From contig JAQXEG010000014.1 of the NCBI GenBank assembly GCA_029250945.1, positions 1 to 40,963 of the forward strand: a stretch of DNA of 40,963 bases, in the 5' to 3' direction. Position numbers and translations under genes: made by a program. The DNA comes from Yoonia sp. (GTDB lineage: Bacteria > Pseudomonadota > Alphaproteobacteria > Rhodobacterales > Rhodobacteraceae). The notes beneath the pieces are model-generated. The model was not told the DNA's origin. It worked only from the letters and a program-made list of their open reading frames with translations, and ran no database searches. Positions 25,754-32,082 of the stretch are shown in pieces (the stretch's first letter is position 1; each line of letters begins with the position of its first letter).

Positions 25754-27475
25754 ATGTTTGCACTTGTCCGTCGAAACCCAGCGCCGATTGCCGTCTATCT
25801 GACGCTTGTCGTGGCCTTTGTGACAGGGGTCTGGTGGTATGGGTATGCGGCGGCGTTGGCCCAGTTGGATCGGCGGGCGCAGTCTGATCTGGCATTGGCG
25901 GCAGATAGTTTGACCGGTGAGTTGCGGCGGTTTAGGGAATTGGCCGTGCTGACCGCCGACCGCCCTGAACTTGCGGCCGTGCTGGCCGGATCAGGCACGC
26001 TAGAGGCGGTGGCACCCATCCTGCAAACAATCGGGGATAAGTCGGGGGCGTTGGACATTGTGTTGCTGGGTCCCGATGGGGCGCCGCAATCAGGCACGCA
26101 ATCGGCGCCAGCATTCTCACACGCAGGCACGCCTTATTTTGAACGGGCGATGGACGGCGCACTTGGCGTGGATCACCCCGTCCGCGACGAGTCGCGCACA
26201 TTTGTTTTCGCCGCACCTGTGTTTTCCGATCTTGGCCCGGTGATTGGCGTCTTGCTGGTTTACGCAGGCGTTGAGGGCGTTGAAGGCACATGGCGCGGTG
26301 CGCGACCGGTCCTGTTTTTCACGGATGAGGCTGGAGTGGTATTTGTGTCCAACCGGTCCGAACTGGTGATGCGAGCGCGCACGCAAGGCGATTTCCTGCG
26401 CTATACATCACGGGATTTGCGCGGCGTTGATGTGTGGCGCGTATCCGGCAGCCGCTATGTGCCCGCCCGCGCGGTGCATCGCACGATGGACTTGCCCGTG
26501 ATTGATATGGTCGGCGAGGTACTGTTGGATGCGTCACCCGCCCGCCAGATTGCATTGCTACAGGCGGCGGTTGCCGCGGCGCTTTGCCTTGCATTCGGGG
26601 CGCTTTTGTTTCTTGCGACCCAGCGTCGTCTGACCTTGGCAGAGGCGAATGCAAAGCTGGAACACCGCGTCGCGGACCGCACGGCACAACTATCGTCTGC
26701 AAACCTGTCACTGCGCCGCGAGGTCGAGGAACGGCGCGCCGCACAGATGCAACTGACCAAGGCCCAAGCTGATTTGGTGCAGGCGGGCAAACTGTCAGCG
26801 CTTGGCCAAATGTCGGCGGGCATCAGTCACGAGCTAAACCAACCCCTGATGGCGATCCAGTCGTTTGCTGAAAACGGCCAAGCCTTCATGGCACGCGGGC
26901 AGGGGGATGTTGCGGCGCAAAACCTCGGGAAAATTTCAGAGCTGGCGCACCGGATGGGGCGGATCATCCGCAATTTGCGCGCCTTTGCCCGCCAAGAAAG
27001 CGAACCCTTGGGCAATGTGGATGTGGCCCGGGTGGTCGATGCCGTGCTGGAATTGCTGACGCCCAAGATCACCAAAGCGGGTGTGCGTGTCCATTGGGAC
27101 GCCCCTGACGGTATCATCGTTCGCGCAGGCGAGGTGCGATTACAGCAGGTTGTTCTAAACCTCGCGGCGAATGCGATTGATGCGATGGAATTGTCCGACC
27201 CCAAGGTGCTGACCATCAGCGTTACGCATGATGCGGACCGGATCATCCTATCGGTGCGCGACACGGGGCCGGGCATCACGGAACCAGAAAAGATATTTGA
27301 TCCCTTCTACACCACCAAAGCCATCGGTGCTGCAGAAGGGATGGGCCTTGGCCTGTCGATTTCATATGGATTGGTGCAAAGTTTCGGCGGCATGATCCGT
27401 GGCCGCAACCACGTAGACTGCGGCGCGGTGTTCGCGGTCACTTTGATCCCCACAGATGGGCAAAAGGCAGGATGA
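25754..27475 (+). CDS. dctB: C4-dicarboxylate sensor histidine kinase, DctB-like
   Basis: Membrane sensor of 573 residues. TM1 is at about 11-31, a periplasmic sensing domain at about 32-270 and TM2 at about 276-297. A coiled coil (EANAKLEHRVADRTAQL) leads to the HisKA box with phospho-acceptor H359 in GISHELNQPLMAIQSF. The ATPase domain shows N box NLAANAIDAM, G1 DTGPGI, F box FDPFYTT and G2 GMGLGLS. This layout and the neighbouring dctPQM genes point to sensing of succinate, malate or fumarate. The stop overlaps the dctD start (ATGA). Confidence 0.9.
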   Translation: MFALVRRNPAPIAVYLTLVVAFVTGVWWYGYAAALAQLDRRAQSDLALAADSLTGELRRFRELAVLTADRPELAAVLAGSGTLEAVAPILQTIGDKSGALDIVLLGPDGAPQSGTQSAPAFSHAGTPYFERAMDGALGVDHPVRDESRTFVFAAPVFSDLGPVIGVLLVYAGVEGVEGTWRGARPVLFFTDEAGVVFVSNRSELVMRARTQGDFLRYTSRDLRGVDVWRVSGSRYVPARAVHRTMDLPVIDMVGEVLLDASPARQIALLQAAVAAALCLAFGALLFLATQRRLTLAEANAKLEHRVADRTAQLSSANLSLRREVEERRAAQMQLTKAQADLVQAGKLSALGQMSAGISHELNQPLMAIQSFAENGQAFMARGQGDVAAQNLGKISELAHRMGRIIRNLRAFARQESEPLGNVDVARVVDAVLELLTPKITKAGVRVHWDAPDGIIVRAGEVRLQQVVLNLAANAIDAMELSDPKVLTISVTHDADRIILSVRDTGPGITEPEKIFDPFYTTKAIGAAEGMGLGLSISYGLVQSFGGMIRGRNHVDCGAVFAVTLIPTDGQKAG

Positions 27476-28686
27476 CGATGAAGGTTCTTTTGGTCGATGA
27501 TGATCCTGCAATTCGAGAAGCGTTGGGCCAAACGCTGGAGCTTGAGGGGTTAACGCCCGTTCTGGCAGGCTCGTTTCTGGCGGTAAAGGATCATTTGACG
27601 CCAACCTTCGACGGTGTTGTCGTGACTGATATGCGCATGCCGGGCCGTGACGGATTTCATCTTCTGGATTATGCACGTAAAACCGATCCTGACCTGCCGG
27701 TGATTTTGCTCACGGGCGAAGGTGACATCCCAATGGCGGTCAAGGCGATCGCCTCTGGCGCGTATGATTTCTTGGAAAAACCCTGTGGGCCATCGGCGTT
27801 TCTGGCGGTGGTGACGCGCGCGCTGAAGGCCCGTGGTTTGGTGCTGGAAAACCGGCGCCTTGCCGCAGCGGTGGCGCAGGGGGATGCCGCGTCCCGCCTT
27901 CTGCGTGGCGTGTCGCCCCAAGCGGATGAATTGCGCAGCCAATCCCGCCGTGTTGCCGCCCTTGGCACTGACGCATTGATCACAGGGGATCGTGGGTCGG
28001 GTACGGCCAAAGTGGCCGAGGTCGTCCATCTTTTGTCGCCAGCCGCCGCGCGTGCGTTTGTGAAACAATCAGCGGGACAGCTGGATGTTAGTAGCTTGGC
28101 GCATGTGCTCGACCGCGCAGCAGGTGGCACGTTGTATCTGGATGAGATCACGCGCCTCCCCGAAGACGTACAATACGCGTTGCTTGACCGGATTGAGGGC
28201 GGCGCAGGTGCGCGTATCCTTGCGGGGACCACGGTGCCGATTGAGCCGGGCGATTTGCTTGAGGATTTGTTTTACCATTTCGACATTCTGCGCATCCACA
28301 TCCCGCCATTGTGCGGGCGCAAGGTCGATATTCCTGTGCTGTTTCGCCACTATGTCGAACAGGCCTGTGAACAGGCCAACCTGCCCATGCCCGATATTGG
28401 GAGCGAGGTTATCGCCCGTCTGATGGCGCAAGACTGGCCTGGCAACGCGCGCGCCCTTGTGAATGCTGCGATGCGGTTCGCCATGGGATTGGACGATACC
28501 GATGATGTAGAGGAGCAGGGCCTTGCCGTGCAAATGGCAGCCGTGGAACGATCACTTTTGATCGCCGCACTTCAGCGCAATCAGGGCCGTGCCGGTGACA
28601 CGGCGACCGATCTGATGCTGGCGCGCAAAACATTCTACGACAAGCTGGCGCGACATAATTTGCGTTGCGAAGACTACCGGATGTAG
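27472..28686 (+). CDS. dctD: DctD-like response regulator with degenerate AAA+ domain
   Basis: Response regulator of 404 residues, partner of DctB. The receiver domain is intact (DDD at 9-11, phospho-site D53 in VVVTDMRMPG, K of FLEKPCG). The central NtrC-type AAA+ domain is degenerate. Walker A reads GDRGSGTAK with no lysine at the expected place, and the stretch that should hold ELFGHE and GAFTGA is missing, so RAFVKQSAGQ runs almost directly to GGTLYLDEI. The Walker B, LEDLFYHFDILRIHIPPL and WPGNARALVNAAMRF parts remain. The C-terminal Fis-type HTH is present (LMLARKTFYDKLARHNL). It probably binds DNA but cannot remodel sigma-54 polymerase. Confidence 0.88.
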   Translation: MTMKVLLVDDDPAIREALGQTLELEGLTPVLAGSFLAVKDHLTPTFDGVVVTDMRMPGRDGFHLLDYARKTDPDLPVILLTGEGDIPMAVKAIASGAYDFLEKPCGPSAFLAVVTRALKARGLVLENRRLAAAVAQGDAASRLLRGVSPQADELRSQSRRVAALGTDALITGDRGSGTAKVAEVVHLLSPAAARAFVKQSAGQLDVSSLAHVLDRAAGGTLYLDEITRLPEDVQYALLDRIEGGAGARILAGTTVPIEPGDLLEDLFYHFDILRIHIPPLCGRKVDIPVLFRHYVEQACEQANLPMPDIGSEVIARLMAQDWPGNARALVNAAMRFAMGLDDTDDVEEQGLAVQMAAVERSLLIAALQRNQGRAGDTATDLMLARKTFYDKLARHNLRCEDYRM

Positions 28687-28689
28687 GCA

Positions 28690-28740
28690 TGTGCGGAATT
28701 CCGCACAGATTGCGCTAACATTTGTGTGGAATTTCGCCCG
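28690..28740. promoter_or_regulatory. Tandem operator sites upstream of dctP
   Basis: The first site is a perfect 18-base palindrome, TGTGCGGAATTCCGCACA (28690-28707). A related site, TGTGTGGAATTTCGCCCG (28723-28740), matches it at 14 of 18 positions, 33 bases away, about three helical turns. Position between dctD and dctP suggests DctD binding sites. I found no convincing sigma-54 -24/-12 element (GG-N10-GC) in 28741-28883. Confidence 0.65.
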
Positions 28741-28883
28741 TTGATTTGTTCAATTTTCGAAAGTTACGGAAAATCAATGCGTTGCCGGGGTGAAAATTGT
28801 GATTGCCCCCCACGTCCGCGTATCGTCTGATATCGCACATGGGGGATAATGCGCCCCGCAACGATGTTCTGGGAGGAACCACA

Positions 28884-29900
28884 ATGACATTTTTGAAGAA
28901 CGCCGCCATGGTCGCGGCGATGTCTGTTGCCGCAAATGCGGCCTATGCTGATGCCCACTCTGGCGGCTGTGATGACGGTGAGATCGTAATCAAGTTCAGC
29001 CACGTCACCAACACAGACAAGCACCCCAAGGGGATCGCGGCGAGCCTGTTGCAGGAACGCGTGAACGCTGAAATGGACGGCACGATGTGCATGGAAGTGT
29101 TCCCATCCAGCCAGCTTTACAACGATAACCAAGTCCTCGAGGCGATGCTGCAAGGCGACGTGCAGATGGCGGCGCCGTCACTGTCCAAGTTCGAAGCCTT
29201 TACCAAGCAGTTCCGCATTTTCGATCTGCCGTTCATGTTCACCAACATCGAAGCCGTGGACGCGTTCCAGACGTCCGAGACCGGTCAGGCGATGAAAGAC
29301 AGCATGCAGCGTCGTGGTTTGCAGGGGCTGCAATTCTGGCACAACGGCATGAAGCAGTTTTCGGCCAACGTTCCGCTGAACCTGCCAACTGACGCCGAGG
29401 GGCTGAAGTTCCGCGTGCAAAACTCTGACGTCCTGGTCGCGCAGATGTCCGCGCTGGGTGCATCCCCGCAGCCAATGGCATTTTCCGAAGTTTACGGTGC
29501 CTTGCAGACGGGTGTTGTAGACGGTCAGGAAAACACATGGTCTAACATCTACGGCAAGAAGTTCTTTGAGGTGCAGGACGGCACCACAGAAACCAACCAC
29601 GGCATCATTGACTATCTTGTTGTGACGTCTGTGGACTTCCTCGACAGTCTTGATGCGCCTGTGCGTGACCAGCTAATGATGATCCTCGAAGAGGTCACGC
29701 TGACCCGCAACAGTGAGGCATTCGCTGTCAACGAAGAGGCTAAGCAAGCTGTGATCGACGCCGGTGGCGAAGTACGCCAGCTAACCGCAGATCAGCGCGC
29801 CGCATGGGTTGCTGCGATGAAACCCGTCTGGGAACAGTTCGTCGGCGATGTTGGCCAAGAAAACATCGACGCGGCTCAGAAAATCAACATGGGTCTATAA
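28884..29900 (+). CDS. dctP: TRAP transporter solute-binding protein DctP
   Basis: Periplasmic receptor of 338 residues for C4-dicarboxylates. The signal peptide is about residues 1-23, with likely cleavage after an A-x-A in NAAYADA. The mature part has IVIKFSHVTNTDKHPKG, MEVFPSSQLYNDNQVLEAM and FRVQNSDVLVAQMSALGASP, with the arginine that usually binds the carboxylate, and GVVDGQENTWSNIYGKKF. GGGAGGAACC precedes the ATG at 28884; an in-frame start at 28803 would remove the signal peptide from the N-terminus. Transcription is likely driven from the tandem operator region. Confidence 0.95.
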   Translation: MTFLKNAAMVAAMSVAANAAYADAHSGGCDDGEIVIKFSHVTNTDKHPKGIAASLLQERVNAEMDGTMCMEVFPSSQLYNDNQVLEAMLQGDVQMAAPSLSKFEAFTKQFRIFDLPFMFTNIEAVDAFQTSETGQAMKDSMQRRGLQGLQFWHNGMKQFSANVPLNLPTDAEGLKFRVQNSDVLVAQMSALGASPQPMAFSEVYGALQTGVVDGQENTWSNIYGKKFFEVQDGTTETNHGIIDYLVVTSVDFLDSLDAPVRDQLMMILEEVTLTRNSEAFAVNEEAKQAVIDAGGEVRQLTADQRAAWVAAMKPVWEQFVGDVGQENIDAAQKINMGL

Positions 29901-29943: not shown

Positions 29944-29976
29944 GATTTCACGACATTATTGGGGGAGGGGACCGCG

Positions 29977-30663
29977 ATGTCGGGCACCCAAGATGCGCTA
30001 ACCAGCCGGTTTGGCCACGCAATTTCATACCTTGAAGAAACGATAATCGCCATGTTGCTGGGCCTGATGGTCATGGTGACGTTTGCGAATGTGGTCCTGC
30101 GCTACGCGTTCTCATCGTCCCTGCTGTGGGGGTTGGAGGTCACGTTGATCCTATTCGCATGGCTTGTGCTGTTTGGAATTTCCTACGGGTTCAAGATCAC
30201 GGCGCATCTGGGCGTCGACGCGGTCATCAACGCGGTGTCCGCAGGGCCGCGCAAGGTGCTTGTCATGCTGTCGGCCATCGCCTGCATTGCCTATGGTGGG
30301 TTGTTGATGAAAGGGGCTTGGGATTATTGGGCGCCGTTTGGCGGCTATCAACAGACCACAGGGCGCGTCATCCCCACAGGGTTCAATGACCGCACCCGCG
30401 ATCAGGGCTGGTATGAGACCGAACAGGTGCCGATCCCCTTTGCGCAGACCTATTTGGAAAAAACGTTCAACATGGGCGAGGAATACGAAAAGCTCCCCCG
30501 CTTTATCCCCTATGTCATGCTGCCGTTTGGCGTGGCGTTGATGTTGTTCCGCATTTTGCAAGCCACCGCTGGCATCGCCACGGGCCGCCGCAAATCAATG
30601 ATCGCCAGCCACGAGGCCGAAGAGGCCGTCGCAGACGTGGCCCACATGAATAAGGACGCTTAG
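29977..30663 (+). CDS. dctQ: TRAP transporter small permease DctQ
   Basis: Four-helix inner-membrane subunit of 228 residues that couples to DctM. Helices are visible at TIIAMLLGLMVMVTFANVVL, WGLEVTLILFAWLVLFGIS, VLVMLSAIACIAYGGLL and YVMLPFGVALMLFRILQ. It has a long loop between the third and fourth helices, making it larger than minimal DctQ, as in C4-dicarboxylate systems. A strong GGGGAGGGG lies before the ATG at 29977. It ends 3 bases before dctM. Confidence 0.92.
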   Translation: MSGTQDALTSRFGHAISYLEETIIAMLLGLMVMVTFANVVLRYAFSSSLLWGLEVTLILFAWLVLFGISYGFKITAHLGVDAVINAVSAGPRKVLVMLSAIACIAYGGLLMKGAWDYWAPFGGYQQTTGRVIPTGFNDRTRDQGWYETEQVPIPFAQTYLEKTFNMGEEYEKLPRFIPYVMLPFGVALMLFRILQATAGIATGRRKSMIASHEAEEAVADVAHMNKDA

Positions 30664-30666
30664 GTC

Positions 30667-32082
30667 ATGGATGTTGTTCTATTATTCGCGATGATCGTTG
30701 GGATGCTTTTGATCGGCGTGCCGATTGCAGTGTCGCTTGGCCTGTCGTCGATAATCTTTCTGCTGGCGTTCTCTGATACGTCGCTCGCGTCGGTGGCGCA
30801 GTCGCTTTATCAGGCCATGGCGGGGCACTACACATTGCTCGCGATCCCGTTTTTCGTGCTGGCGTCGACGTTTATGTCGACCGGCGGTGTGGCCAAGCGG
30901 ATCATCCGGTTTTCCATCGCTTGTGTCGGCCACCTTCAGGGCGGCTTGGCAATTGCAGGCGTTTTGGCCTGTATGATGTTTGCGGCTTTGTCCGGATCAT
31001 CACCCGCGACTGTTGTTGCTATCGGGTCCATCGTGATCGCGGCCATGCGGCAGGTCGGATATACCAAGGAATTCGCGGCAGGCGTGATCTGTAACGCGGG
31101 CACATTGGGCATTCTGATCCCTCCGTCCATCGTGATGGTGGTCTATGCATCGGCCACTGACGTATCGGTCGGCCGCATGTTCCTTGCCGGTGTGATCCCC
31201 GGTATTCTGGCAGGCACGATGTTGATGGTCGCCATCTATATCATGGCGCGGATCAAAAATATGCCCAAGGGCGAATGGCAGGGCTGGGGCGAGGTGTTTG
31301 CCTCGTTCCGTGACGCCGTCTGGGGCCTGTTGCTGATCGTCATTATCATGGGTGGCATTTACGGTCACCCGTGGATTTCAACCCAAGGCATTGTCTGGAA
31401 ACCTGGTTCGTTCACCCCGACCGAGGCCGCAGCGGTGGCATCAGTCTATGCGTTCATCGTGGCGACGTTCATCTACCGCGATATGGGGCCATTGGCCGGT
31501 GTCGACGGTGGTGCGCCTGTGTCACTGCTGCGCAAACCGCAGGCGCTGATCACGGGCTGGTTTCATGGCGATACACGCAAGGCGCTGTTTGAGGGCGGTA
31601 AGCTGACGGTGACGCTGATGTTTATCATCGCCAACGCGCTGATCCTGAAACACGTGCTTACCGACGAGCAGATCCCGCAGCATATCGCCGAGGCGATGCT
31701 GTCCGCAGGCATGGGTCCGGTGATGTTCCTGATCGTGGTGAATGTGATTCTGTTGATCGGTGGTCAGTTCATGGAGCCATCGGGCCTGATTGTGATCGTG
31801 GCGCCCTTGGTTTTTCCCATCGCGATATCGCTGGGCATTGATCCGATCCATCTGGGCATCATCATGGTGGTGAACATGGAGATCGGGATGATCACGCCAC
31901 CTGTCGGGCTGAATTTGTTTGTGACGTCGGGCGTTGCGGGCATGCCGATGATGGCCGTTGTGCGCGCGGCATTGCCTTTCTTGGCCGTGTTATTCGTGTT
32001 CCTGATCATGATCACCTACATCCCGTTCTTGTCGACCTATTTGCCGACAACCTTCATGGGGCCAGAGATCATAACCAACTAA
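30667..32082 (+). CDS. dctM: TRAP transporter large permease DctM
   Basis: The 471-residue sodium-driven permease subunit with about 12 membrane segments. Family motifs are ALSGSSPATVVAIGSIVI, GVICNAGTLGILIPPSIVMV and, in the C-terminal half, MEIGMITPPVGLNLFVTSG. A cytoplasmic loop (about 275-305) is longer than in the shortest DctM proteins. It follows dctQ by 3 bases and is the last gene of dctPQM, closed by a terminator at 32120. Confidence 0.95.
   Translation: MDVVLLFAMIVGMLLIGVPIAVSLGLSSIIFLLAFSDTSLASVAQSLYQAMAGHYTLLAIPFFVLASTFMSTGGVAKRIIRFSIACVGHLQGGLAIAGVLACMMFAALSGSSPATVVAIGSIVIAAMRQVGYTKEFAAGVICNAGTLGILIPPSIVMVVYASATDVSVGRMFLAGVIPGILAGTMLMVAIYIMARIKNMPKGEWQGWGEVFASFRDAVWGLLLIVIIMGGIYGHPWISTQGIVWKPGSFTPTEAAAVASVYAFIVATFIYRDMGPLAGVDGGAPVSLLRKPQALITGWFHGDTRKALFEGGKLTVTLMFIIANALILKHVLTDEQIPQHIAEAMLSAGMGPVMFLIVVNVILLIGGQFMEPSGLIVIVAPLVFPIAISLGIDPIHLGIIMVVNMEIGMITPPVGLNLFVTSGVAGMPMMAVVRAALPFLAVLFVFLIMITYIPFLSTYLPTTFMGPEIITN

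Follow-up and report, generated by a model that had tools for sequence, protein, structure and literature searches.

Degenerate DctD regulators of marine roseobacters likely switch on a dicarboxylate-type uptake operon via a sigma-70-type polymerase

The stretch of DNA investigated in this study (the window, comprising all 40,963 nucleotides of contig JAQXEG010000014.1, here C33, in the Yoonia sp. assembly GCA_029250945.1) carries the genes dctB, dctD, a short gap, and dctP, dctQ and dctM, and it raises the question of how a response regulator of the NtrC type could control adjacent uptake genes when the part of the protein that would act on sigma-54 is gone. The rhizobial DctD of Sinorhizobium meliloti is a sigma-54 activator. 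From the letters of the window alone, a sequence-only reading had proposed a DctD that works independently of sigma-54 on tandem sites, a proposal that is strongly supported by the comparative evidence presented here, namely the loss of GAFTGA, the absence of sigma-54, the operator pair and the layout of the promoter. We estimate at roughly three in four the probability that DctD is a phosphorylation-switched activator that would bind two tandem palindromes and recruit a sigma-70-type polymerase without hydrolyzing ATP. In many marine roseobacters, such a degenerate DctD likely switches on the adjacent dicarboxylate-type uptake operon by means of the ordinary sigma-70-type polymerase.

The losses were followed in 81 proteins, consisting of the DctD of the window and 80 Rhodobacterales relatives (from genome contigs, at 54–75% identity, the best 80 of 327), among which those of Loktanella and Yoonia are nearest to it. 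A GAFTGA-like string was found in none of the 81 aligned sequences, and position 178, which is a Thr in the window, nowhere holds the Walker-A Lys (0/81) and instead accommodates Thr in 39, Ile in 33, Val in six, and Ser, Phe and Asn in one protein each. Both deficits had been recognized in the window, and they turn out to be shared by the entire set, including the GAFTGA loss for which an alignment across the order had been proposed; an oddity of a single metagenome-assembled genome is thus rejected. When aligned with four homologues that carry GAFTGA and stem from other families within the class (L133, L134, L136 and L137), the protein displays a deletion of 19 residues after residue 213, which removes the GAFTGA loop (L1), and a second one of 12 residues before sensor I. 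The first arginine finger (column 263) is absent in all 81 proteins, and the second position holds Arg in 65, Lys in 13 and His in three, among them the window. The 12-residue block we take to be the loop or insertion (L2) that defines the PspF superclade. A pre-sensor-I insertion is described in PMC2745333. The two deletions and the losses of catalytic residues thus affect the parts that contact sigma-54 and fire ATP hydrolysis, and since the Walker-A Lys and the first arginine finger are gone, DctD is predicted to act without hydrolysis. A 405-residue DctD-like protein from another family of the class (L132 of genome G242) shares both loop deletions and has kept the Walker-A Lys; it sits on a long branch of the tree, and its stretch contains no dctP-like gene.

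The receiver, already judged intact in the window, retains its phosphorylation residues D10, D53, T81 and K103 in all 81 proteins. For the helix-turn-helix domain, the same judgement holds with respect to its RK..YD core (R385, K386 and D390 in 81/81, Y389 in 80/81 with one exchange to Phe), whereas the match of the window protein to Pfam HTH_8 (20.8 bits) stays below the cut-off of 22. All three domains are under purifying selection, and dN/dS of the AAA+ domain ranges from 0.03 to 0.14 in eight of nine pairs, with the remaining pair being saturated, which led us to reject a pseudogene or relic. Despite its losses, the AAA+ domain is still predicted to fold in a structure model; NtrX and further proteins of the NtrC type are, as expected, the top hits of a fold search, and the best NCBIfam model, the ResRegPgtA equivalog, reaches 252 bits, short of its cut-off of 650.

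Two residues past the lost Walker-A Lys, Lys180 (28009–28011 of the window) is invariant in the 81 proteins, which leaves room for ATP binding by DctD. It might thus be conceived that the protein is a sigma-70-type activator that binds ATP for oligomerization without hydrolyzing it, with Lys180 standing in for the missing residue. Replacement of the P-loop Lys normally abolishes nucleotide binding, and the canonical residue has given way to Thr, Ile or Val in 78 of the 81 proteins; the structure model moreover places Lys180 inside the first turn of a helix that spans residues 178–188. These observations stand against the invariance of this residue, the retention of the Walker B Asp and Glu (79/81 each) and of the sensor-II Arg (81/81), and the precedent of Rhodobacter capsulatus NtrC, which, according to PMC10274813, requires the binding of ATP and not its hydrolysis. 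On balance we regard an ATP-binding DctD as possible yet doubtful. The most diverged member, L126 of the same-genus genome G123 (52–53% identical), is devoid of a Lys180 equivalent and carries a single weak site before dctP.

The separation from sigma-54 is also apparent in the genomes. In the genome of the window (2.53 Mb in 48 contigs, with an estimated completeness of 95.4%), a search for the sigma-54 DNA-binding domain returned only a partial match of 20.2 bits, under the cut-off of 22.8, and matches over the cut-off were obtained in one of 24 same-genus relatives and in 13 of 16 other members of the class. Of the 80 genomes that harbour the related DctD loci, 62 are without a match over the cut-off, although sources that name these proteins often call them 'sigma-54-dependent'. 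The other 18, which include a borderline case (G089) and one truncated by a stop (G099), encode an equally degenerate DctD, and it is for this reason that we reject a GAFTGA loss resulting solely from the loss of sigma-54; 16 of their loci contain the operator pair. A family-level draw of 149 genomes, where the DctD type was called by E-values up to 1e-90 alone irrespective of GAFTGA, contains this type in 66, sigma-54 over the cut-off in 44 and both in 13 (with G324 borderline and G280 truncated), and sigma-54 is thus rarer where this DctD occurs (13/66 vs 31/83, Fisher p 0.02). The DNA-binding domain is without a match over the cut-off in 105 of these 149 genomes.

The candidate binding sites are located between dctD and dctP. 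The perfect palindrome of 18 bp and its imperfect copy 33 bp away stand where they had been described, and so does dctD; the first palindrome has one match within three mismatches in the window compared to 0.05 expected from shuffles, and both sites fit the motif TGTGYGR-N4-YCRCACA. A matrix trained on strict sites up to 420 bases 3' of dctD and run over the 81 loci (903,199 bases) identified 124 sites of at least 14 bits, and every one resides in the gap preceding dctP (the contig of L088 ends ahead of this gene). A chance palindrome is rejected on the basis of the shuffle expectation and the conservation across loci. A pair is found in 65 of the 81 loci with a spacing of 33 bp in 36, 32 in 28 and 31 in one, and no partner site occurs in these loci at any other offset between 20 and 45. 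The pair is not tied to the vicinity of dctD, since it still precedes dctP in 15 loci where that gene is 645–2,423 nucleotides from dctD, outside the training stretch.

A strict symmetric pattern applied to 56 same-genus genomes, 26 of which encode this DctD, placed 16 sites at the dctD/dctP locus, spread over 15 of these 26, and seven elsewhere, equal to the seven of a backwards control, whereas a looser whole-genome pattern with two mismatches (97 matches vs 116 in the control) was uninformative. Among same-genus loci, all 25 that were read, some from genomes already represented in the 81, have at least one site of at least 8 bits before dctP, and 18 have the pair. With its sites confined to the gap before dctP, DctD appears to act on one target only. 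These distributions and the purifying selection on all three domains are difficult to reconcile with the palindromes belonging to another regulator and DctD being a degenerate relic, which we consider very improbable. L131, from another genus, shows neither a site nor dctP within its stretch.

Further downstream, the pair loci share a promoter-like arrangement. A [CG]TTG is located 96–104 bases past the end of site 2 in 55 of 65 (median over windows, 3), with TTGAGC being the commonest form of the −35 (25/55), so that a TTG −35 is placed at about 99 bp and followed by a −10-like hexamer 17 bp on. The hexamers of sigma-70 promoters are TTGACA and TATAAT; the hexamer observed here ends with T in 47 of 55 loci but has little else in common with TATAAT. 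Upstream of the −35, a core YAAN4YTG starts 41–47 bases past site 2 in 35 of 65 loci (median 0). It is the reverse complement of the core of the IHF consensus WATCARN4TTR, and the genome of the window encodes IhfA (140.4 bits, cut-off 120.25). This IHF-like site of the relatives, the second loop deletion and the absence of sigma-54 had escaped the sequence-only reading. The consensus of sigma-54 promoters is TGGCACN5TTGC. No strict version was found in the 65 pair loci, and agreement with the fuller consensus is no better than in shuffles. In the window, the assertion that no GG-N10-GC precedes dctP is not quite exact, as there is a four-letter match at 28841; the fuller consensus has no match with fewer than three mismatches out of ten between 28687 and 28883.

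The same promoter features might indicate that the housekeeping sigma is not the one that reads the operon and that an alternative member of the sigma-70 family, such as one of the RpoH type, does so. A CTTGAGC −35 combined with a −10 other than TATAAT resembles RpoH-type promoters of alphaproteobacteria, although promoters of the housekeeping sigma commonly have a CTTG −35 in this group as well, and heat-shock logic is lacking for an uptake operon, which makes this explanation unlikely. We assign a slightly lower likelihood still to DctD being a repressor that would keep dctPQM off from the tandem palindromes and be released on phosphorylation. Such a role is known from TyrR-like sigma-54-independent relatives, which can repress (TyrR and PhhR, PMC3162934). 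However, the sites are positioned around 100 bp 5' of the −35 at near-constant distance in 55 loci instead of covering the promoter, the IHF-like core in between fits a contact with the promoter, and the −10 is weak, as at activator-dependent promoters.

Several observations weigh against the assignment of DctD as activator of a sigma-70-type promoter. The −10 departs from TATAAT in most relatives, no [CG]TTG is found at the expected place in ten of the 65 pair loci, and the promoter and IHF patterns were picked after viewing 49 of them. Seventy-six of the loci hold dctP, a pair or both; of these, ten have a single site and L018 has none at 14 bits, which together with five loci without dctP in their stretch account for the 16 that do not contain a pair. 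In light of the 95.4% completeness of the genome, the missing sigma-54 is by itself not a proof. The window adds difficulties of its own: its site 2 is weak, its −35 is only 63 bp past this site compared to about 99 in relatives, its IHF core falls into a gap of about 22 bp relative to the nearest relatives L102–L104, and a consensus promoter scanner applied to the region found no promoter. Its −10 is degenerate as well, like site 2 and the IHF core. Given the loss of the IHF core, the shifted −35 and the empty promoter scan, the window represents an otherwise convincing family rather badly.

Activation by DctD would start with its phosphorylation at Asp53 by DctB upon sensing of a ligand, presumably C4-dicarboxylates. 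In the next step, a DctD dimer would sit on each of the two sites, both on the same face of the helix, as suggested by a spacing of 31–33 bp that corresponds to three helical turns. The sites lie about 145 and 175 bp 5' of the predicted start in most relatives, and about 105 and 140 bp 5' of it in the window. IHF may in many relatives bend the intervening DNA and thereby bring DctD to the polymerase, where the phosphorylated protein would directly contact the sigma-70-type enzyme and activate transcription, with its AAA+ domain probably serving as scaffold for oligomerization or contacts and not as motor. We are slightly inclined towards a broader evolutionary proposal, in which the roseobacter lineage of DctD has converted an AAA+ motor into a non-hydrolyzing scaffold and has moved a full enhancer layout, consisting of tandem sites roughly 100–175 bp out, an IHF bend and fixed phasing, from a sigma-54 to a sigma-70-type promoter, an arrangement that would be shared throughout Rhodobacterales and persist even where the genome retains sigma-54.

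The features of the window are compiled in the following table. With respect to the surrounding genes, dctB is found immediately 5' of dctD in 78 of the 81 loci by a distance rule and farther off in the remaining three.

Table 1. Position of genes, protein motifs and predicted regulatory elements in the window.
Feature	Position	Strand	Description
dctB	25754..27475	+	sensor histidine kinase, 573 aa; HisKA and HATPase_c domains
dctD	27472..28686	+	404 aa; receiver, degenerate AAA+, Fis-type HTH
Walker-A region GDRGSGTAK	27985..28011	+	residues 172–180; Thr at the position of Lys178, Lys180 invariant
Junction of 19-residue deletion (L1)	28110..28111	+	GAFTGA loop removed between residues 213/214; alignment with L133, L134, L136, L137
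Walker B LYLDE	28132..28146	+	retained
Junction of 12-residue deletion	28206..28207	+	before sensor I, between residues 245/246; alignment with L133, L134, L136, L137
Operator site 1	28690..28707	+	perfect palindrome TGTGCGGAATTCCGCACA; predicted from sequence
Operator site 2	28723..28740	+	imperfect copy TGTGTGGAATTTCGCCCG, 33 bp from site 1; 11.7 bits
Predicted −35 TTGCCC	28803..28808	+	alignment with nearest relatives L102–L104
Predicted −10 TCTGAT	28826..28831	+	weak; 17 bp past −35; alignment with L102–L104
dctP	28884..29900	+	TRAP solute-binding protein (PF03480, 331.7 bits); predicted target
dctQ	29959..30663	+	TRAP small permease
dctM	30667..32082	+	TRAP large permease

A search of the genome of the window with PF00158 provided ten matches, four of them of NtrC type (DctD, an NtrC-like, an NtrX-like and a 445-residue protein), three being other AAA+ proteins that appear Clp- and MoxR-like, and one lying in a 339-residue frame on contig C27, with all these names given by eye. 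The three NtrC-type regulators besides DctD (L001–L003, on contigs C29 and C38 of genome G000) are also devoid of GAFTGA, and the whole set of this genome thus looks uncoupled from sigma-54. A genus search with the 404-residue DctD yielded 12 further matches at 37–41% identity, which were left out of the family counts and of which four, whose loci were fetched, represent another DctD type. L127–L130 (from G004, G137, G143 and G121) constitute a second full-length type with about 40% identity and an intact Walker A, where GAFTGA is replaced by GAFPGA in three cases and GAFAGA in one, and which precedes a different TRAP-type binding protein (its start read by eye). In G004, the one genome of the four that was searched, there is no sigma-54 match. 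Enhancer-binding proteins that are defective favour Pro at position 4 of GAFTGA, and a Jannaschia genome without sigma-54 has a putative protein of this kind with altered GAFTGA, as stated in PMC3162934.

If correct, our assignment implies that a major marine group controls uptake genes through an enhancer working without sigma-54 and without an ATPase. Far-upstream activation of the sigma-70 polymerase by an NtrC-type protein could then be tested in a system that is simple, seems to have just one target and comes in many natural variants. Within the titles and beginnings of abstracts of the open-licence literature, we found no mention of a DctD from Rhodobacterales that lacks GAFTGA, nor, among the best-ranked papers at the same depth, of a DctD lineage without both loops and the Walker-A Lys or of its conserved layout of operator, IHF site and promoter.

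In acting without sigma-54, DctD is most likely akin to R. capsulatus NtrC or to VpsR. The sites of R. capsulatus NtrC are reportedly in tandem and more than 100 bp upstream. As described in PMC10274813, this protein, which comes from the same order of bacteria, is likewise a response regulator of the NtrC family with no GAFTGA loop, it acts at sigma-70 promoters with the housekeeping polymerase and depends on ATP binding, and it belongs to a sigma-54-independent group that includes other loopless NtrCs of Rhodobacterales, the NtrC of Caulobacter, and VspR/VpsR. In contrast to R. capsulatus NtrC, the DctD investigated here is also devoid of the Walker-A Lys, the first arginine finger and the second loop, and its target is a TRAP operon. 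TyrR and DhaR of Escherichia coli and HupR of R. capsulatus, which are sigma-54-independent too (PMC3162934), respond to different signals and act on different targets, a comparison made at the level of signals and targets. In contrast to the DctD of S. meliloti, the roseobacter protein has neither the GAFTGA loop nor the second one, and its Walker-A Lys and first arginine finger are missing too. Finally, while the titles of structure entries for VpsR mention the binding of c-di-GMP, the roseobacter DctD differs from VpsR/VspR of Vibrio cholerae in that its receiver keeps all phosphorylation residues and that its cognate DctB is encoded next to it.

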